Assembly (NCBI GenBank): GCA_026400835.1
Contig: JAPLOA010000076.1
Coordinates: forward strand, 62,001 to 126,000
Source: Planctomycetales bacterium
GTDB taxonomy: Bacteria > Planctomycetota > Planctomycetia > Planctomycetales > Planctomycetaceae
Direction of reading: 5' to 3'
DNA length: 64,000 nt
Shown piece after piece: positions 19,987-43,724 of this stretch. How positions within the stretch are numbered: position 1 is the first letter of the stretch; every line of letters begins with the position of its first letter. The notes under the pieces are model-generated. The model was not told where the DNA came from and searched no databases. It was given only the letters and a program-made list of their open reading frames with translations. Both the position numbers and the translations under genes were made by a program.

Positions 19987-22752
19987 TTATTGCAAAAACA
20001 CAAACTCATTGCTGTTCAACACGGCTCTGCAAAAAGCTGGAAGCCCCTGTTCGCCGAGGAATTCAGCGGAATCAATGAGCTCTTTGGCGTCGGGTTCGCG
20101 GCCAAAGCAGAGCCAGAAGGCGCGCACGATTTGTTTTGAAGCATCGTCACCACACTCGCGCTTCAGGCGGTCAGCAAAGAGTTCAGATTGCTGCAACATG
20201 AACGGACTGTTGAATAAATTCAGGGCCTGAAGAGGCGTTGTCGAGCGGCCTCGTTTGGGGACGGAAGTAGCGGCATCGGGGCAGTCGAAGATGCCGAAGA
20301 CGGATTCTTTCTCCAGTCGCACTTTCGTCATGTAAATCATGCGGCGCCAGTCTGCGGGGCCGTAGTTCTTCTTTGGAAAGTAGTGACGGACATTTTCCAG
20401 TTCGACTTCAAAGCCGCTGAAACCGGGGCCATACATGCGATTATCCAGGATGCCGGTGACGGCAAGAATGCTGTCGCGAATTGGTTCGGCTTCCAGTCGA
20501 CGAGGAGGAAATCGCCACCACCACTCGGTCGCCGCATCGGCCTGCAGAGCATCCTCGCGAGGCTGACTGCTTTGCTGATAGGTCGAAGATGTCAGAATCA
20601 ATCGATGCACATGTTTCAGGGACCAACCGTTGTCCATCAGCTCGCGGGCCATCCAGTCCAGCAGTTCCGGATGAGTCGGTGCGACGCCGGCTTTCCCGAA
20701 GTCGCTTGGCGTTGAGACCAGCCCCTTACCAAAGTGAAATTGCCACAAACGATTCACGATGACTCTGGCTGTCAGCGGATTCTCCTTCGATGCGATCCAG
20801 TCCGCTAATGCCAGTCGGCGTTGCTGTTCCGGTGTGGCTTCGCTGATTGCCAGTTTTCCGAACGCGGCAACGGTGCCGGGTTCAACCTGTTCACGTTTCG
20901 CCAGAGGTTCGCCGCGGAACAAACGATGAGTCGGCCCGGGCTGTTGAAACGTTCCGGCATAGATTGTGGCCGAAGCCTGCAATTGTGACTTGCGTTGTTC
21001 GCCATCCTGCAGTTGCTTGAGGAGGTTACGGCCCCGCTGGGCCTCCGCTGCGGGGAACTTTGCAAAGTCGTATTCGGGCTGAGTCGCTTTACTGTTGAAT
21101 GGAAGCCGATCGGCCGAGGACGCCACTTCCTTCCACTGGCCTGCTTCGACGGCAACTTCAATGCGATACTTTGTGGCGACTCGGTCACCGAACTGGCCGT
21201 CTCGATCTCGAGCCCACGCAATGCGACTTATCGGCTTCACTTCGGGAAGTTCGATCTGCACCCAACCTTTGCCGCCTTCGTTAGAAATCCAGCTCCGCGA
21301 ATTGCCACCGCGACCATCGTTGAGATGTTCCAGCTTGTGAACCTCGTACCCAGGCAGTGTGCTGGAGGCCGTCGCCTTTGCCCCCGATGATGCGAGAGCC
21401 ACGTTGATCGTATCGCTGAAGATCTCCAGTTCATCAATGCACGGTTCGCCGCCACTGCTTTCATCGATCGTGAAGCGCACGTACCTGGCTGGCGTGATTT
21501 CGAACAACTCTTCATTGCCTCGAGCTGTCACGGCTGGGCGACTCGGTCCGGCTTCCTTCAGATACGGCTTGAGCTGTTCGCGAAGCTGCAATAGTTGCCG
21601 ATCAATCTGAGCGATCTCCTGCTGCTTGTCTGGTAACAGCGGCATCGAACGATCGCCGTGCTGAATGCCTGCGAAGACAGCCTGCATTGAATAATAGTCT
21701 GACTGACGAATCGGATCGAACTTGTGGTTGTGGCAACGTGCACATCCAATCGTCAGGCCGATGAACGCGGTCCCGGTGGTTCCGATGATGTCATCAAGTT
21801 AATTCTGACGCTGCATCAGAGTGAGATTGATGTCCGGGCTCTTGACGAGATCGTAAGGTCCCGAAACAAGGTATGCTGTCGCTTCAGGTACTCCGACCGC
21901 ATCGCCCGCAATCTGTTCCCGCAGAAACTGATCATACGGCTTGTCCTCGTTCAGCGAACGAATCACGTAGTCGCGATAAGGCCAGGCATTAGGACGTTCG
22001 CGATTGGTTTCGAAGCCGTTTGTTTCGGCGAAGCGGACCAGATCCAGCCAATAACGAGCCCACCGCTCACCATAATGAGGACTCGCAAGAATTCTTTCAA
22101 CGAGCTGCTGGTAGGCCTCCGGTTGGTCATCAGCAACGAACGCCTGAACTTCCTCCGGAGTCGGCGGCAACCCGAGCATATCGAGGTAGATCCGTCGAAT
22201 CAGATCTGCTTTCGTCGCCTTTGGATTTGGTACGATGGAACGTTCGGTCAGCTTCTGAAAGATGAACGAGTCAATCGGGTTAGAAACAAACTTGCTGCTC
22301 ACCGAAGGCGGAACAACAGCGGCGACGGGCTTGAACGACCAATGATCCAGTTCGCTCGTTTCGGTATCAGTTTCATTCTCCGAACCCGGCCATGCGGCTC
22401 CCGAGTCAATCCATGTTCGCAGAATTTGAATCTCGGATTCCGTCAACCGATTCGCTTCATCCGGCGGCATCAGCTTGCCCGCCTCATGTCCCGAAACCAG
22501 AGCAATTAAGTGACTCTTTTCGCTGTCCCCGACGATAATGGCTGGTTCACCGGAATCACCTCCACGCAGCATGGATGAGCGACGGTCCAGTCGCAAATGG
22601 CTTTCCTGAGTCTCCGGGCCGTGGCATTCCAGACATTTGGCCGTGAGAAGTGGTCGGACCTGCGATTCAAAACTGACATCGTCGGCCGCATCGCACAGCC
22701 GAGGCGCAGCGAACAGGAGCAGCGTGACTAACACAGAATAAAGCGTTTTCAT
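19987..22752 (-). pseudogene. DUF1549/DUF1553 cytochrome-like protein interrupted by in-frame TAA
   Basis: One continuous reading frame of 922 codons from ATG 22752, broken only by TAA at 21799-21801 (codon 318). Upstream part: signal peptide, heme motif CLECH (C40-H44), KLMPPDEANRLT, then DUF1549 (RRIYLDMLGLPPTPEEVQAF, HYGERWARYWLDLVRFAETN). The stop falls in LTLMQRQN-stop-LDDIIGTTGTAF; after it the frame resumes with the second heme motif CARCH (337-341), a discoidin-like insert and DUF1553 (WMARELMDNGWSLKHVHRLI ... ALNLFNSPFMLQQ). The paralogue at 56365-59397 has Glu at the equivalent site (AQDELEDLVG). A single G-to-T change in a GAA codon explains it. Either a recent pseudogene, a readthrough, or an assembly error; everything else in the gene looks intact. 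Confidence 0.85.
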
Positions 22753-29581: not shown

Positions 29582-32500
29582 CTACTTCATCAGTGTTTTG
29601 ACGTATTCGATCACGTCGGCCAGATCCTGATGTGAGAGGTCTTTCTCAAGGCCTTCCGGCATCAGCGACTTTCCCGTGCTTCGAAGTTCTTCAATATCGC
29701 TTCGGAGAATCGACTCCGTTTTAGCCTCCGCCGCAACCAGAGTCAGGCTGCTTCCTGTTTCAGTCGACAGAAGACCGATGACGCTTCTCCCAGAGGTAGT
29801 GACCGCGACGAAGTTGAGATACCTCGCCTCGACGGCAGAACTAGGATCCAAAATCGCCGTAAACAGTGACTCTGGCATACGATTCGTCAGCGAAGCCAGA
29901 TTAGGTCCTACTTCAAAACCAACACTGTTCTGCTTATGACAAGTTGAACATCGCTTATTGAAAACTGCCGCGCCTCGCACGGCATCTCCCGTAAGCTTCA
30001 GTGCTGGCTGGAAGGATTCCATCACAGCCTTTCGATCGGCCGACGTACCGGCGACAAAGATCTTCTCCAGGCGTTCACGAATGGCAGGTTCGCGAGTCGT
30101 CAGAAGTCGTTGCCTCATGGAAGCATCAATCTCCGCTGCGGCAACCTGTCCTGATTCCATCTGCGTCAGGAGCTGAACGACCCACTCCGGACGGCTCGAG
30201 AGAATGGAAAGAATCTGTGTCCGTATCGCTGGAGAATGTGACGGCCATCCGGCGAGCAACACCTCTGCGGCAGCACTACTTGACTGCCTTCCAAGATGCT
30301 GTATGGCAGCCACCTGCACTGCGGCTGGAGTTTGCGGTGTCAGCATATTCTGCAACGTCAAAACATCTTCCGTATGCTCGGGATCTCGCAATAGCAGCGG
30401 GATTGCGGCTACTCGAAGGATTTCATGTTCAGCAGAATCAGACGCAAGTCTTCGCGCAATCACAAAGGCCTGAGTGACCAAATCTCGGCCCCGCCCCTGC
30501 TGAACGTGTTCGTCGATTGACCAGTTGCGAGCCTTCAGTCGATCCAGCATCTTTGCCAGACTCTTCATCTGCCATGCCTGCAGGCGATCGTTCGAATCAT
30601 CGACTGTCAGCAACAGCAACCGCTCCAGATCGTCACCACCAGCCATTGAAGCGGCCTGTTCAAACAGTGTGCTTGTCAGTTCGTCGCGATCTGCCGCAGA
30701 GAATCCGGGGATGCGCGAAACATCTGGTTCCAGTTCAAGGGACTCTGCCTGCACAATTGCACCAAAGCCATCAATGGTGTTACTGATGTTGCCCGCATTG
30801 AGTGAACTCATGATAGCCGCTCGCATAAAGGGATCAGTATCGCGCAGCAGGAGCTCTCCTAAAATGGCTCCCGCCACAGTATCGTCCGGTCGACCAGCAA
30901 CGCAGGCCAACTCCAGCCGTACCTTTGCATCAGGATCGTTGGTCAATGAAGCCAACGCCATCAACTCAAGGCCAGACGCCGGTGCCAGACGTACGGCCCA
31001 GCGTCGAACTGCGGGATGAATGTCCTTCACTGCGGTCGCAACGATTTCCGGTGTTAACTTACCAAGTCCATCCAGCGTACATAGCGCATGAAGTCTGGCC
31101 GTGGGACGCTGGCCTTCCGTAACCATCCGAACCAGAAGCTCGACAGCCGCATCATCAGCCTTCGCGATAAGAAGTCGCTGAGACGTATCGCGTCGCCAGC
31201 CATTGGAACTCTCCAGTTCCGCAACAAGTTCCGATGTCATCATGCGATCAAATCGCTGAGCAACGCCCTTCGCGATCGAATCTGATTTCGCAAGATCCTT
31301 CCGCACGATGCGATAAACTCGACCTCGGTCATCTCCGGATCGAAAGAACGGCCTGAGTTCATCCTGACCTTCTTTTGGCAGCCAATGAGGATGCTCAATC
31401 ATGTAGCGATACATGTCGACAATCCAAAGTGCCCCGTCCGGACCAGTGCGCACCATCACCGGTCGACACCAGCGATCTTCGGATGCAAAGAAGTCGTGCT
31501 TCGCATCCACTTCTGCTGGATCACGTTCCAGTCGAAAGCTAACCCCATCATCAATCAACAGGTTATGTTGAACGAGATTGCTGAACGGTTCACACGTAAA
31601 GACATGCTGCGTACTAAGGTTTAATCTGCCGTCCTCATGCGACGCCCCGAACAGTACTTCATCAAGATACACCATCCCCGAACAAGCTGACGTGTATCGC
31701 CCTGATTGCTCAAAGCTATGAAATCGTTTCTCCGGAGGCGCAGCCGCGTAGACCGGCGGATTGGAGGGTGTCATCAGCCTCCGAGGATCTGGCGGAGCAA
31801 AAAAAGGATTGCGTCGTATGTAGGGATCTTCAAGCACGTAATGCCATAGAGGATAGCTGTTCTGTTCGCCAAACCAGTTGCCCCATGCATCTCGATTGCG
31901 TCCAAACTGCGAGGGACCACTTTGGGGATCAATCAAACCTTCATCGGGACGAATTCGAAAATCGCGACTTCCCACCGTTGTTTTCTGATTGGTCACATGC
32001 GACAGAATCTGACTGTCCGCACCATAGCCGGGATGATGACTGCCACTGGCACAATGCACCCAGTTATCCAGACCCCAGCGAAGGCCATTCACTCGCAGTT
32101 GCTGATTGCCCTCGAGAAATCCCGAGAACAATGTTTTGCGAATATCGGCTGTTCCATCGTTGTCGGTGTCTTCGGCGTAAATGATCTCCGGGGCCGCGGT
32201 TATCAACACTCCCTTACCCCACGCCATGACGCCAGTTGGAAACGAGATATCCTTAAGCAGCACGGTCGATGTGTCGTATTGGCCATCACCATCTTTATCT
32301 TCCAGATATCGAATTCGCCCGCCAGGCTTGCCGTTGTTGTCCATGCCAGAGGGATAATCGGCCATCTCCGCAACCCACAACTTCCCATCCGGCCCCCAGT
32401 CGATTGCAACTGGGTCAATGACGAGTGGTTCTGCAACAACCAATTGAAGTTCAAAGCCCTCACGAACGTGAGCAACTTTCATAGACTCCGCTGGCGACAT

Positions 32501-33352
32501 CGGCGGTGTATCGGGGCGAGCAATCACCTCATTGATTTGCGGATCCTGCGTGGCTTTTGCGACCGCAAAGTGGGCTGCAACTTCCTCGACACTCAAAACT
32601 CTGTCATACAAAGCCACCTCATCCAGTCGGCCTTCCAACCCAAACATGCGATCATTGCGACCACCAAGGAAGACATCGTCTGTGTCCGCAAACGTCGGTT
32701 CAAGGTCGCCATCAATTTCCGGCGAAGGATTTCCGTTGAGGTAGACGCTGACGTGTTTGCCACTTCTGACCAGCACAACATGATTCCAGGTACGAGGTTC
32801 CAGGACAGTTTTCCCGACCAGCGCTTCATCACGCTCGTTCCCGTTAAACATCATCAATTTGCCATCCCATCCGTGGTTGAGGTAGTTTCCTCCAATACCA
32901 AGATGATCGCCGGCAACTTTTGAATCTCCGTCAGGTCCTCGAGAAAAGAAGTAACCGGTGACGGCACGGTCGCTATTCGGAAAACCGTTCCAGACCCAAC
33001 ACTCAACAGAATATGTGTCCCCGAGCTGTGGCACATTGGCGACGACGCGACCACCGGCAAAATGGATTGCCCTGTTTCCTCGAGGCTGCTGTTCAAACCC
33101 CTCGCCTCTTGGTCCGGGCAAGTAAAACGCGAGACCCGCTTCACCTAATGCGGAATGTTTTCCTGTAGCGTCTGCGATTGTGCTCACCATAGCACTCATC
33201 TCGCCCTGCGAGATCCCCTGGCCCTCTTGTGGAGCAGGAGGAGTACATTCGATTTCGCCAAGCCTCCAGAAAGCCACCGGCTTTGAATCGAGAACAGCCT
33301 TCGCATACGAATGCAGTTCATCGGCGATTGGACGTCGCGATTTGTTCGCCAC
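29582..33352 (-). CDS. LamG / PVC-type dehydrogenase / HEAT / cytochrome c protein, probably the 3' part of a larger gene
   Basis: 1256 residues if begun at GTG 33352. Order: LamG jelly roll (about 15-260; VLDSKPVAFWRLGE ... GRLDEVALYDRVLSVEEVAA), PVC-type membrane-bound dehydrogenase propeller (about 285-690; FELQLVVAEPLVIDPVAIDW, GPDGKLWVAEMADYP), HEAT-like repeats (about 720-1080), and a C-terminal cytochrome c with CSTCH at 1135-1139 and the conserved ILDPSSAVEARY region. The ORF has no signal peptide, although a c-type heme needs export. An in-frame TAG (33377-33379) separates it by eight codons from the ceramidase-like ORF, which has a signal peptide, and the ribosome site before GTG is too close (GGAG, 3 bp). 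Reading as one fused protein is therefore likely. Confidence 0.85.
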   Translation of the reverse strand: MANKSRRPIADELHSYAKAVLDSKPVAFWRLGEIECTPPAPQEGQGISQGEMSAMVSTIADATGKHSALGEAGLAFYLPGPRGEGFEQQPRGNRAIHFAGGRVVANVPQLGDTYSVECWVWNGFPNSDRAVTGYFFSRGPDGDSKVAGDHLGIGGNYLNHGWDGKLMMFNGNERDEALVGKTVLEPRTWNHVVLVRSGKHVSVYLNGNPSPEIDGDLEPTFADTDDVFLGGRNDRMFGLEGRLDEVALYDRVLSVEEVAAHFAVAKATQDPQINEVIARPDTPPMSPAESMKVAHVREGFELQLVVAEPLVIDPVAIDWGPDGKLWVAEMADYPSGMDNNGKPGGRIRYLEDKDGDGQYDTSTVLLKDISFPTGVMAWGKGVLITAAPEIIYAEDTDNDGTADIRKTLFSGFLEGNQQLRVNGLRWGLDNWVHCASGSHHPGYGADSQILSHVTNQKTTVGSRDFRIRPDEGLIDPQSGPSQFGRNRDAWGNWFGEQNSYPLWHYVLEDPYIRRNPFFAPPDPRRLMTPSNPPVYAAAPPEKRFHSFEQSGRYTSACSGMVYLDEVLFGASHEDGRLNLSTQHVFTCEPFSNLVQHNLLIDDGVSFRLERDPAEVDAKHDFFASEDRWCRPVMVRTGPDGALWIVDMYRYMIEHPHWLPKEGQDELRPFFRSGDDRGRVYRIVRKDLAKSDSIAKGVAQRFDRMMTSELVAELESSNGWRRDTSQRLLIAKADDAAVELLVRMVTEGQRPTARLHALCTLDGLGKLTPEIVATAVKDIHPAVRRWAVRLAPASGLELMALASLTNDPDAKVRLELACVAGRPDDTVAGAILGELLLRDTDPFMRAAIMSSLNAGNISNTIDGFGAIVQAESLELEPDVSRIPGFSAADRDELTSTLFEQAASMAGGDDLERLLLLTVDDSNDRLQAWQMKSLAKMLDRLKARNWSIDEHVQQGRGRDLVTQAFVIARRLASDSAEHEILRVAAIPLLLRDPEHTEDVLTLQNMLTPQTPAAVQVAAIQHLGRQSSSAAAEVLLAGWPSHSPAIRTQILSILSSRPEWVVQLLTQMESGQVAAAEIDASMRQRLLTTREPAIRERLEKIFVAGTSADRKAVMESFQPALKLTGDAVRGAAVFNKRCSTCHKQNSVGFEVGPNLASLTNRMPESLFTAILDPSSAVEARYLNFVAVTTSGRSVIGLLSTETGSSLTLVAAEAKTESILRSDIEELRSTGKSLMPEGLEKDLSHQDLADVIEYVKTLMK

Positions 33353-33376
33353 TTTCTCCAGCAGCTTCGTCAGAGT

Positions 33377-34762
33377 CTACACGATCTGAGGCTCTGCCGT
33401 CTCCTCGAGACCAGCCGTTCGAGCTGCCCAGGTTGTATACCCACCGAGTTTGAGCTGTTCCGGTGGCGGAATATATCCCTCGGCGCCGTTGGCGAGTTCG
33501 ATATTCATCGTCACTTTCAGTGGACTGCGATTCTTCAACTTGATTCCGGTGATGCTAAAGACTTCGTCAGGAATCGCAGTGATTCCCAGATCACCGATGC
33601 GAATGGCCTGCAGCTTTAACTCCGCCGTGGGGTCTTCATGCAGTCGAAGTTGCTCAAACGCGTAGACCTCTGACCATCCTCGCGGTAATCGATCGCCAAC
33701 TTGTGCCGCAAGATCCTGAGCCCACTTTAATCTCGCTTCATCCGGAGCGCGTCGATCGAGCTTCAACGTGGCTTCTTCCATCGCCAGAGAGATATCTTTG
33801 CGATAGATGATTTTGCGGTAAGCCTCTGCCGCAATCTGAGCAACGCCAGCTGTGTAAGCCTCAGGATTATTCTGTCCTGCAGGTTTGCTATAGTCTGGCC
33901 ACATGCTGTCACCGCTGGTGCCTTGTGACATGATGCCGACAAATCCTGTTTGCTGATTGTTCGCTCCGATGAGTTCAGCCAGCTTCAGCCCGAAGCGTCC
34001 GCAGAAATCTCCTGAAACCAGCGGTGATCCGTAGTAGTGCATCGCGTAGTTCGCGAGCACTGCCATTGGCTGACCATTCGTCGTTTGCATAGAGAGCAGC
34101 GTCAGATCGGTATCCGCTGGACCGGATGGACCGATGTGATTGGGGCTTTGATATCCGGGATGCATATGGGCTCGCACATTGAGTTGCCCAAATGGATCCG
34201 CCATCGTCATGCGATCTGATCGAAAGATCCAGCGTCGACAATGATTGTGTTGATCGTCGGTGGTGACAGCCCAGCCAGCCTGAGCCGGAACCAGCTTCTC
34301 ATTGGCCTGCACGATACTTCGGACAATTTGCCCCGGCAGAAAATCGGCGTACTCCGGATCAACTCGACTTCCCAGACACGGCATCGCCGATGGCGCGGAA
34401 TGCGTATGGGTCGCAGAGATCAACATGTGATGCGATGGAATTCCGGTGAGCTGAGAGGCCTGCTTTTTTGCATCATCCAGCATCGCGCGAGTCAGCATCA
34501 AACTGTCAACAACGACGATCGCGATTTTCTCTACCCCATCGTCAAGTACGAGGGCTCGACTCATGAGTGCGTCGTGGGCTTTCTCAGCCGTTCGCTCTTC
34601 CACCATTCCGTTGACGATCACAGGGAAGACTGTCGGAGTAATGTCCACCATGGCCGCGCCTGCTCGGAACACAGCGGGGTTCGACTCCTGCGATTGAGCT
34701 TCAGGATACGCTGTCATTGACAACAGAAGTACGAATGCCAAGATCTTTGTGCATCGCCGCAT
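33377..34762 (-). CDS. neutral/alkaline ceramidase-like exported hydrolase, ends at in-frame TAG
   Basis: 461 residues from ATG 34762 (GAGGA 9 bp upstream; an in-frame TTG at 34768 is less likely). Signal peptide RRCTKILAFVLLLSMTAYPE. Ceramidase N-terminal domain features: FRAGAAMVDITP, a zinc-site motif LISATHTHSAPSA, VLANYAMHYYGSPLV and MSQGTSGDSMWPDY. The family hydrolyses ceramide amides in eukaryotes and pathogens; in planctomycetes substrates are unknown. The reading frame does not end naturally: after AEPQIV-stop comes TLTKLLEKVANKSRRP, which continues the expected C-terminal helix of the family, and then LamG. The TAG probably replaces GAG (Glu). Confidence 0.85.
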   Translation of the reverse strand: MRRCTKILAFVLLLSMTAYPEAQSQESNPAVFRAGAAMVDITPTVFPVIVNGMVEERTAEKAHDALMSRALVLDDGVEKIAIVVVDSLMLTRAMLDDAKKQASQLTGIPSHHMLISATHTHSAPSAMPCLGSRVDPEYADFLPGQIVRSIVQANEKLVPAQAGWAVTTDDQHNHCRRWIFRSDRMTMADPFGQLNVRAHMHPGYQSPNHIGPSGPADTDLTLLSMQTTNGQPMAVLANYAMHYYGSPLVSGDFCGRFGLKLAELIGANNQQTGFVGIMSQGTSGDSMWPDYSKPAGQNNPEAYTAGVAQIAAEAYRKIIYRKDISLAMEEATLKLDRRAPDEARLKWAQDLAAQVGDRLPRGWSEVYAFEQLRLHEDPTAELKLQAIRIGDLGITAIPDEVFSITGIKLKNRSPLKVTMNIELANGAEGYIPPPEQLKLGGYTTWAARTAGLEETAEPQIV

Positions 34763-34984
34763 GATCAAGAGTCCTCAAAATCTTCCGCGATCATCATCCT
34801 TCGCTGCATGATAGTACCATCGCCTCGACAATGCATAACGATCCGCGTCAGGTCAGACCGTAGACCTGCTTTCCTGACCACTCAAAAGGCTCATTCTGCA
34901 GTCGAGATTGCACTTTTAGACCTTACACGTGTACGCTGATCGCGTGACAGAGCCTGCGGTTCTGATTTTTGTGAGGAGTTTTCA

Positions 34985-36621: not shown

Positions 36622-38037
36622 TTACTGTCTGTCCATCCTCGGCTGTCGCCCTTTGCCACCGCCTTTTTTCCCTCGTTGTGCCTGTTGGGAACTGGGGTCG
36701 TAGGCTGGATTCTTCTCGACAGGACGAGGTGCGCCGGTGGTTGTTTGCCAATCCAAAAGAACCTGCTTCAACTCTTTGGCTTTTTGTGACTGCGACTCCA
36801 CAAGGTTCTTTTTCTCACCGGGATCATTCTTCAGATTGTAAAGCTCGAAAGATTCATCCTGAAACTTCTCGATCAACTTCCAATCTCCCATCCGCACCGC
36901 GCTGCTGGGTTCTCCACGGCCAATGTAACAGGGGAAGTGCCAGAAGACGGAGTCTCGATTGAGTGACTTCGCGTCATCACGCAGAACCGACATCAGGCTG
37001 GTTCCGTCGATCGGTTGGTTCTTCGGAAGGTCGACGTCAGCAAGTTCGGCGATGGTTGGATAGAAGTCCATGCTCACGACAGGTTCGTCAAAATCACGAC
37101 CTGGATTCTTCAGTCCGTTCCACCAGATCGCTGCGGGGACTCGAATGCCGCCTTCATAAAGTGCACCTTTACTGCCGTTCAATGGCGCGACGAATTGAGG
37201 TGTGCCGCCGTTATCGCTGGTGAAGATGACCATGGTATTGTCATCGAGTTTAAACTCCTTCAGCTTATCCATGATTCGTCCAACGTTGATGTCGATGGCT
37301 TCAACGGAGGCAGCCTGCTGAATCTCGGCATCGGACACGTTCGCATACTGAGCTTTCTTTTGGTACTTCGAAACAAGCTCCGGTTTGGGCTCCAGCGGAG
37401 CGTGCACGTCGTGCGTAGCGAGGTAGACGAAGAACGGCTTTGACCTATGAGTTTCCATGAACGAAAGCGTTTCATCCGTCAAAACGTCTGAGCAATATCG
37501 ACCTTCACCGTCGAAGTAAGCATCCTTCTCGAATCCGATGAACTTGGGTTCCACGAAGAGATCAAAGCCCTGCCCTGTCGGAGTTGATGGCCCCGAGCGA
37601 CCTCGACCAAGATTCCACATCCCAAAGCAAGCGGTCGCATAGCCTTTAGATTTCAGCAGTTCCGCAATGGTGACGACATCTCCGCTCAGAGCTTCATTGC
37701 TCTTTGCAGAAATGACTTTGTGATGCGGTTGACCGGGATCATGCCGCGGATCAATCACCGTGAATACGCCATGCCTCGGTGTGTATTGCCCTGACATCAG
37801 AGACGCTCGCGTCGGCGCACAATTCGGCGCGCTGGCGTAGGCTTGAGTAAACCGAATACCCTCACTGGCCAAACGATCGAGGTTCGGTGTTTCGACAAAG
37901 TCGTTCCCTGCAAACCCCACATCTCGCCAGCCCATATCGTCCATCAGGATCAGGACAACGTTCGGAGGTGCGGCATGGAGAGTGTTCTCTGTACCGCTCA
38001 GGCTGAAGAATACTAAGAGGCAGATCATGAGCCGCAT
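36622..38037 (-). CDS. exported sulfatase (1)
   Basis: 471 residues with signal peptide ending near ENTLHAA. Sulfatase signature NCAPTRASLMSGQYTPRHG: Cys73 in C-x-P-x-R is the residue converted to formylglycine by an activating enzyme. Metal ligands appear in ILMDDMGWRDVG (paired Asp) and VIFTSDNGGTPQF. Likely cleaves a sulfate ester from an algal or host polysaccharide; substrate unknown. The C-terminal tail (QQAQRGKKGGGKGRQPRMDR) is basic and glycine-rich, unlike the globular domain, and similar tails occur in neighbours at 38222, 40240 and 41140. No anaerobic or aerobic maturase gene is visible in the window. Confidence 0.93.
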   Translation of the reverse strand: MRLMICLLVFFSLSGTENTLHAAPPNVVLILMDDMGWRDVGFAGNDFVETPNLDRLASEGIRFTQAYASAPNCAPTRASLMSGQYTPRHGVFTVIDPRHDPGQPHHKVISAKSNEALSGDVVTIAELLKSKGYATACFGMWNLGRGRSGPSTPTGQGFDLFVEPKFIGFEKDAYFDGEGRYCSDVLTDETLSFMETHRSKPFFVYLATHDVHAPLEPKPELVSKYQKKAQYANVSDAEIQQAASVEAIDINVGRIMDKLKEFKLDDNTMVIFTSDNGGTPQFVAPLNGSKGALYEGGIRVPAAIWWNGLKNPGRDFDEPVVSMDFYPTIAELADVDLPKNQPIDGTSLMSVLRDDAKSLNRDSVFWHFPCYIGRGEPSSAVRMGDWKLIEKFQDESFELYNLKNDPGEKKNLVESQSQKAKELKQVLLDWQTTTGAPRPVEKNPAYDPSSQQAQRGKKGGGKGRQPRMDRQ

Positions 38038-42689: not shown

Positions 42690-43724
42690 TCATTCCACCT
42701 CAATGCGGCGATTTGCGTCATGATGCGACTCATGATCGAAGAACCGTTCATCCAGTAAATCCTCCGACAATAGTGTTAGTCGGAGAGTCAATGATTCGGG
42801 ACCATAGGGCATTTCGATGAATCGCATTTGGCCAATGAGACCGCTTTCGACTTCGTAACTGATTTCGACTCGCCTTGGCCCGCGTTCTTTGGGATGGCGG
42901 ACAGCAACCAGCAAACGCGTCGCCGGTTCGGAACTCTCACCGTCTTCGACCGGAAGCAATTGAACGTCATAGGCCCGACGAAGACGTTCCAGACCGTCGT
43001 GAATATTGACCAGCGGCATCTCATGCTCATGGCCTGGAAGATCGCGGTTAAAGCGATTCAGATCTTTGCTGTATCGCACCGGACCGTCGGGTCGAACCGC
43101 CCAACTCACCTTGCCGTTGCTGCCAGTCACAAACGGGCCAGCATCTGTAACGCGACTGAGTACGAACTGCTGGCCATCACGCACATACAACGTCGCTCCA
43201 TCCATTGGAGCTTTCGGAGGCCGTCCATCTTCCGACGATGGCCCACGACGAGGCAACACGGCTTCTTCGACAGTGATTTTGTACGTTCGGTCCATGGTAA
43301 GAGCATTCAATTCTATGAGCCGTTGTATTTCACCAGCGGCTGCGACTGCGGGATTGTCCCCGAAGCTTTTGAGGAACACCACGATCGCAACACAAATCAG
43401 TGATGCAGTTGAAACCAGCGCGATCACTGACCGGCGACGAGCCACCACCCCGGCGAGCGGCAGGGCGTCAGCCCTCCGAGTGACTGCAACTTCGCTCAGC
43501 CCCGTAGCGTCATCGCCAGCAGAGCGACACGGAGGACTGACGCCCTGCCGCTCGCCGGAGATGACCAGTTCATTTCGAAGGCGATCATGCAACATCACCG
43601 CCGCTGCAAATGCGCTAGCGTTCTCAGGCGACGACCTAATCCACGCGGATAGTTCTTCGTGCTGCTCAATCGTGAGCATATCATCCAGATATCCATCAAT
43701 CAGAAACTGTGCAGCCTCATTCAT
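42690..43724 (-). CDS. anti-sigma-factor-like membrane protein
   Basis: 344 residues. The cytoplasmic N-terminus (about 1-55; FLIDGYLDDMLTIEQHEELS, a pattern of FecR/anti-sigma proteins of planctomycetes) leads to a linker (56-95), one transmembrane helix (about 99-120; SVIALVSTASLICVAIVVFL) and an extracytoplasmic beta-rich domain. Its start overlaps the ECF sigma-factor stop by 4 bp (ATGA), the usual arrangement of a sigma/anti-sigma pair. No zinc-binding HxxxCxxC motif is visible, so it is not of the ZAS type. The linker is encoded by a large palindromic insert (see repeat 43450-43558). Likely holds the sigma factor at the membrane until an envelope signal arrives. Confidence 0.75.
   Translation of the reverse strand: MNEAAQFLIDGYLDDMLTIEQHEELSAWIRSSPENASAFAAAVMLHDRLRNELVISGERQGVSPPCRSAGDDATGLSEVAVTRRADALPLAGVVARRRSVIALVSTASLICVAIVVFLKSFGDNPAVAAAGEIQRLIELNALTMDRTYKITVEEAVLPRRGPSSEDGRPPKAPMDGATLYVRDGQQFVLSRVTDAGPFVTGSNGKVSWAVRPDGPVRYSKDLNRFNRDLPGHEHEMPLVNIHDGLERLRRAYDVQLLPVEDGESSEPATRLLVAVRHPKERGPRRVEISYEVESGLIGQMRFIEMPYGPESLTLRLTLLSEDLLDERFFDHESHHDANRRIEVE
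43450..43558. repeat. palindromic element inserted in frame in the anti-sigma gene
   Basis: Arms 43450-43478 and 43530-43558 are 29 bp each and match at 28 of 29 positions as an inverted repeat (CCGGCGAGCGGCAGGGCGTC...), with 51 bp between them. The element encodes residues 56-92 of the anti-sigma-like protein (between the N-terminal domain and the membrane helix) without a stop codon. Its GC-rich ends resemble those of the intergenic element at 38111-38176. Confidence 0.85.

Follow-up and report, generated by a model that had tools for sequence, protein, structure and literature searches.

Introduction

The neutral/alkaline non-lysosomal ceramidases (PF04734; PDB: 2zws, 2zxc, and 4wgk) and the PVC-type haem-binding CxxCH proteins (TIGR02604 plus TIGR02603, with DUF7133) are the described families closest to the two halves of the gene analyzed here. 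Recent pseudogenes with a single stop codon exist in bacteria; they combine one in-frame stop with whole orthologues. In the available part of PMC5615132, the cytochrome domains of planctomycete-specific cytochrome c proteins with carbohydrate-binding modules (PSCyt1–3) occur in many fusions, including fusions with LamG (pfam13385); that part of the article covers PSCyt and PSD fusions of Verrucomicrobia and names no ceramidase. In the available part of PMC13288992, high-quality lake-sediment bins hold 125 to 527 pseudogenes each, most of them in the largest bins, such as Planctomycetes, so single broken genes are to be expected.

The window, a 64,000-nucleotide stretch from a Planctomycetales genome, contains a gene whose ceramidase-like first half and cytochrome-bearing second half are separated by an in-frame TAG. 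As in a recent single-stop pseudogene, there is one in-frame stop and the orthologues are whole, but the window gene has no measurable decay yet, and a pseudogene state is therefore unproven. Its second half passes the cut-offs of both TIGR02604 and TIGR02603, as expected of a PVC-type CxxCH protein, whereas its N-terminal partner is a ceramidase-like domain with LamG. The window and the PSCyt1–3 proteins, as the available part of PMC5615132 describes them, have in common varied cytochrome fusions that include LamG, with sulfatase genes close by; the fusion in the window differs from those named there in its ceramidase-like head.

Results

One frame with a single TAG

The TAG is present in the window sequence at 33377–33379 on the minus strand and is the sole break between two ORFs of the same frame, as the first-pass annotation had observed when it proposed that this codon divides one gene. 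Depending on the start codon, the upstream ORF has 463 codons (TTG at 34768) or 461 (ATG at 34762; 33380–34762, minus strand); the ATG is the more plausible start of the ceramidase-like half. The N-terminal start of this half, MRRCTKILAFVLLLSMTAYPEAQSQE, was judged by eye to be signal-peptide-like. Beyond the TAG, the frame is open for 1,264 codons (29582–33376, minus strand) to a stop at 29582–29584 and, again by eye, has no signal-peptide-like start of its own; counted from its first GTG, at 33352, it would encode 1,256 amino acids. The full fusion frame is 1,726 codons from ATG 34762, with the TAG counted.

Domains of the two halves

In the downstream half, Pfam detected Laminin_G_3, DUF7133, HEAT_2, and cytochrome c, and NCBIfam detected TIGR02604 (232.5 bits; cut-off 122.2) and TIGR02603 (108.6 bits; cut-off 68.15) with the haem motif CSTCH. 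Numbered from the GTG, and all on the minus strand, these are Laminin_G_3 at residues 109–259 (32576–33028), the DUF7133/TIGR02604 PVC domain at residues 286–686 for the DUF7133 match (31295–32497), HEAT repeats at residues 770–851 (30800–31045), and the TIGR02603 CxxCH haem domain at residues 1122–1253 (29594–29989). The earlier list of ceramidase, LamG, HEAT, and CxxCH cytochrome agrees with these matches, and the by-eye start and the CSTCH motif agree with its description of a second ORF that has a c-type haem motif yet lacks a signal peptide. The label "dehydrogenase" held only in part: the DUF7133/TIGR02604 domain is present, but most hits in a fold search of the second half were generic helical repeats; the top hit was a Kuenenia dihaem cytochrome, and a PQQ pyranose dehydrogenase chain came at rank 30 (E = 1.4e-3), which gives a dehydrogenase identity little backing.

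The upstream half matched the Pfam family Ceramidase_alk (PF04734) at 48.2 bits against a gathering cut-off of 32.1, over 254 of 509 model positions. It is far below the cut-off of the NCBIfam neutral-ceramidase equivalog NF041649 (27.5 bits versus 1200), and a phmmer search of the PDB with the single ceramidase-like protein gave no match; 4wgk and 2zws were retrieved with a profile built from 17 relatives. Foldseek matched the structure predicted for these 461 residues (mean pLDDT 65.7) to the neutral ceramidases 2zws, 2zxc, and 4wgk, with 2zws the best match (probability 1.00, E = 6.3e-18, TM 0.55 by query length); the model thus supports a ceramidase fold for the first half. His119/His121, His242, Glu400, and Tyr430 fit what we take to be the zinc-ligand positions of neutral ceramidases and are conserved in the aligned relatives. 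His437, seven residues past Tyr430, is Leu in the window copy alone among 17 aligned rows.

The window protein thus has the fold and the zinc-site-fitting His, Glu, and Tyr residues of the neutral/alkaline ceramidases, but its part is only about 460 residues long, falls below the equivalog cut-off, and appears to lack at the aligned place the serine that we take to be the usual ceramidase nucleophile. The profile alignment with ceramidases ends at the GTSGD/TNAGN motif, and the serine beyond it was placed by eye; a serine following GD lies one place off and is missing in three relatives (L015, L018, and L019). Because the presumed nucleophile does not appear to be at its aligned place, an amidase activity would be a guess. 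The idea that the protein joins lipid-amide hydrolysis to redox chemistry accordingly keeps its ceramidase fold but is weakened at both ends, by the score far below the equivalog cut-off and the apparently displaced serine on one side and the thinly backed dehydrogenase on the other.

Relatives carry the fusion as one frame

The protein, with X at the stop, was searched against 59 genomes including its own and had matches in all 59. Among the matches listed, no fewer than 15 of the other 58 genomes had a frame spanning both halves, either whole or truncated at a contig end, and the two nearest relatives (94% and 91% identical) have whole 1,730-codon frames. We examined 37 loci. Four had no match across the TAG place (L013, L017, L020, and L067) and one, L019, was kept separate as a 720-codon ceramidase–LamG frame that is open at the TAG place too; the 32 others were reduced to 22 distinct fusion frames by merging ten with identical match figures, contig, or frame length. 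A sense codon stands at the TAG place in 22/22 of these frames, which are open on both sides, some being cut further on by contig or locus ends. Continuity of the frame across the TAG is therefore not due to chance. Four residue types occur at this place among the 22 frames, so it is not strictly conserved and the position appears tolerant. All 18 named records were metagenome bins labeled as planctomycetes.

In the nearest orthologue, L002, a single chain carries ceramidase (32–286), LamG (579–729), DUF7133 (756–1156), HEAT (1241–1321), and cytochrome (1595–1632) domains. By sequence comparison, the window gene has as its orthologue a secreted planctomycete fusion protein encoded in one frame (ceramidase-like, LamG, DUF7133, HEAT, and CxxCH cytochrome), and the split of the gene was found in the window's genome only. 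Single-ORF homologues spanning both parts, for which the first-pass annotation had suggested a search, thus exist, and the pattern that it named as contrary to its proposal, two genes with a signal peptide on the second protein, was seen at none of the 37 loci.

These frames also bear on the reading in which the locus holds two genuine genes, a ceramidase-like gene ending at the TAG and a separate gene starting at GTG 33352. That GTG follows the TAG by 24 bases and has GGAG three bases ahead of it, and a stand-alone ceramidase-like protein of 480 amino acids (L131) is encoded in the window's genome; however, all of the distinct spanning homologues are one frame, and the second ORF has a CxxCH haem motif with no signal-peptide-like start. 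We regard two genuine genes as highly improbable.

Selection on both sides of the stop

Against L002, dN/dS was 0.071 before the stop and 0.087 after it, in an alignment without a gap. When changes were polarized with a further orthologue, L003, the synonymous and non-synonymous counts on the window branch were 65 and 18 before the stop and 120 and 36 after it, and those on the L002 branch were 33 and 7 before and 96.5 and 19.5 after. On the window branch, non-synonymous changes thus stood in a similar ratio to synonymous ones before and after the TAG, with no sign of relaxed selection beyond it, and the unconstrained share of that branch was roughly estimated at about 3% (95% interval −2 to 8%). 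Sites invariant in the ten other sequences had changed at six places in the window gene, one in L002, and four in L003; the six are not taken as decay because the window branch is longer. No clear decay was found by dN/dS, polarized changes, or substitution spectra.

The absence of an indel and a dN/dS of about 0.09 beyond the stop leave three possibilities for it: a very recent origin, read-through, or a sequence error. If translation does end at the TAG, the onset of termination would be very recent. A fully constrained frame with no indel is also what would be seen if the TAG were an error of the consensus or assembly, or a variant of a minority strain, and the organism's gene were whole. 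C>A changes (coding strand) were commoner on the window branch of the fusion gene (19/269 versus 2/180 on the L002 branch; Fisher p = 0.003, with twelve change classes looked at), as an error might produce; however, G:C to T:A changes taken together were not in significant excess in the fusion gene (30/269 versus 13/180) or in the second interrupted gene described below (13/123 versus 16/128). The 270-kb contig contains zero N, which also speaks against an error.

A second interrupted gene and the collinear neighborhood

A gene of the PSCyt2 kind at 19987–22752 (minus strand) has an in-frame TAA at 21799–21801, within a conserved stretch, and lies 11.6 kb from the fusion gene on the same contig. 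Among the matches listed in 30 genomes searched, its own included, no other internal stop was present in this gene. Its nearest orthologues, in genomes G015 and G004, have whole 922-codon frames, and its length equals that of the nearest one. Over the whole gene, 30 of 123 changes on its own branch were non-synonymous, versus 38 of 128 on the other. A second gene of full length and under such constraint, so close to the first, is again what errors in the consensus would leave.

Window positions 23.7–46 kb are collinear with contig C17 of G004, which holds the second-nearest fusion orthologue (91% identical); 18.5–23.9 kb is collinear with G004:C52 and 15.6–25.6 kb with G015:C125. The fusion gene of G015 sits on a 5.7-kb contig, and the neighborhood of the window's fusion gene was accordingly compared with one relative, at G004:C17. 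Fourteen distinct window genes were compared across the three collinear stretches: 12 had no internal stop, and the fusion gene and gene 19987–22752 had one each. The best matches were nearly as long as the relative's frame, and no frameshift was seen among the 14, which argues against a consensus or assembly error. The sulfatase gene at 36622–38037 has no counterpart in the collinear G004 stretch.

Internal stops in family controls from the window's genome numbered 0 in 43 TIGR02604 rows and 1 in 52 sulfatase rows, the latter being a relic at L082:1419–1742 (G000:C105) with a TAG and a frameshift by eye. Two interrupted genes among 14 exceeds what these controls and the PSCyt2 matches described next would lead one to expect, and the local consensus may be poor. 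In the part of the PSCyt2 family represented by the matches listed, out of 95, 70, and 89 matches in G000 (the window's own genome), G015, and G004, stops numbered 1, 0, and 1, respectively; the one in G000 is gene 19987–22752. Because the PSCyt2 genes of G000 and G004 each include one, single stops appear to be sporadic in otherwise open members of this genus. In the G004 gene (L138, on C59), a 1,085-codon frame is interrupted by one TAG.

A coding-statistics survey for interrupted genes covered 794 kb on contigs C65, C68, and C112 and flagged 46 places; we inspected 38 of them by eye, leaving out the fusion gene's own stop and seven low-scoring places. Besides gene 19987–22752, only a transposase at C68:4846, with several stops, looked interrupted. 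A second survey model listed 11 places and missed the TAA at 21799–21801; the survey is therefore insensitive and gives no firm rate. We also considered whether the stops fall at one residue type. Both window stops fall at one and the same residue type, as carried by most relatives for the fusion and by the nearest orthologue for the second gene, but the fusion column varies and the G004:C59 stop stands at another type (by eye, without an alignment), and the idea was set aside.

Stop codon use and tRNA genes

Over 794 kb, we counted 271 gene-like frames of at least 150 codons, which end in TGA (114), TAG (81), or TAA (76). The anticodon CTA was present at none of the genome's 64 tRNA places (Rfam model), of which 63 were called by ARAGORN and the last, on C6, has the anticodon TCG as read by eye from its fold. 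ARAGORN reported one tRNA with anticodon tta (L070:632–703), which is not among the 64 places, carries A instead of U at position 33, and is mismatched in its acceptor stem. It lies in the C6 array, one of two divergent tRNA arrays, with 21 genes in L070 (G000:C6) and 11 in L071 (G000:C83). General recoding of TAG and a suppressor tRNA are both judged unlikely: TAG serves as a normal stop and ends 81/271 gene-like frames, no CTA tRNA was found, and the single aberrant tRNA is ill-formed.

Leaky or programmed read-through, which would give both a short ceramidase-like protein and a long fusion, would explain the preserved frame downstream of the TAG and the open frame behind the TAA of gene 19987–22752, and the tta tRNA might be invoked for it. 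Against it, none of the 22 spanning homologues has a stop at the TAG place, all three stop codons are in use as terminators, and the tRNA complement is as described above; we consider it very unlikely. In a version extended to both interrupted genes, low-rate read-through of UAG and UAA would yield short and long products, and selection on the long product would keep the frames; there is only a slight chance that this is so.

Discussion

We think that the fusion gene was probably broken by a nonsense mutation, sporadic and recent, with an exported ceramidase-like protein still made and the cytochrome part silenced. In this lineage or strain, a single recent base change would have turned a sense codon into TAG where the ceramidase-like domain ends. 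Translation stopping there would release an exported, nearly complete 461-residue ceramidase-like protein; L131 ends, by eye, about 13 residues past the matching point, and a protein terminated at the TAG would therefore comprise nearly a full domain of that kind. The LamG–DUF7133–cytochrome part would not be made in usable form, because c-type haem is attached outside the cytoplasm and a product from GTG 33352 would have no signal sequence. The cell may tolerate the loss because it has many related genes, with 43 TIGR02604 and 95 PSCyt2 match rows in the same genome. The long exported protein envisaged by the first-pass annotation, of 1,728 residues, has single-frame counterparts elsewhere, but in this organism a truncated product is likelier than the long one. 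On the assembled sequence alone, a consensus error fits nearly as well as the nonsense mutation; we judge an error or minority variant to be possible, if on the unlikely side.

The domain combination, earlier called remarkable, is less so when seen beside its relatives. The window's genome encodes, besides the stand-alone L131, a ceramidase-like protein with LamG (L132, 783 amino acids) and one with DUF7133 and cytochrome (L134, 1,827 amino acids); the fusion is modular and belongs to PVC cytochrome families that are already known. As the relatives compared keep the gene whole, the window copy is an ordinary break in a modular family and not a new kind of gene. Two palindromic repeat families have several copies in the L134 locus (L134:915–6398, G000:C77), where the 1,827-codon frame is unbroken. 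In the window, a REP-like palindromic repeat pair (43452–43477 and 43531–43556) lies inside a probable coding ORF (42690–43724); its 26-base core has 87 copies in the genome at one mismatch or fewer, and the reversed control has 0.

What look like neighboring ceramidase and cytochrome genes are thus parts of a single gene for a modular secreted protein, broken in this copy, a reading that guards against annotating the locus as two genes or as evidence for a new genetic code. In the literature searched, we found no paper on a planctomycete ceramidase–cytochrome fusion and no tested function for the intact family, with its hydrolase-like head on a PVC cytochrome. With several combinations in one genome, the family is a fair system for asking what PVC cytochromes do.
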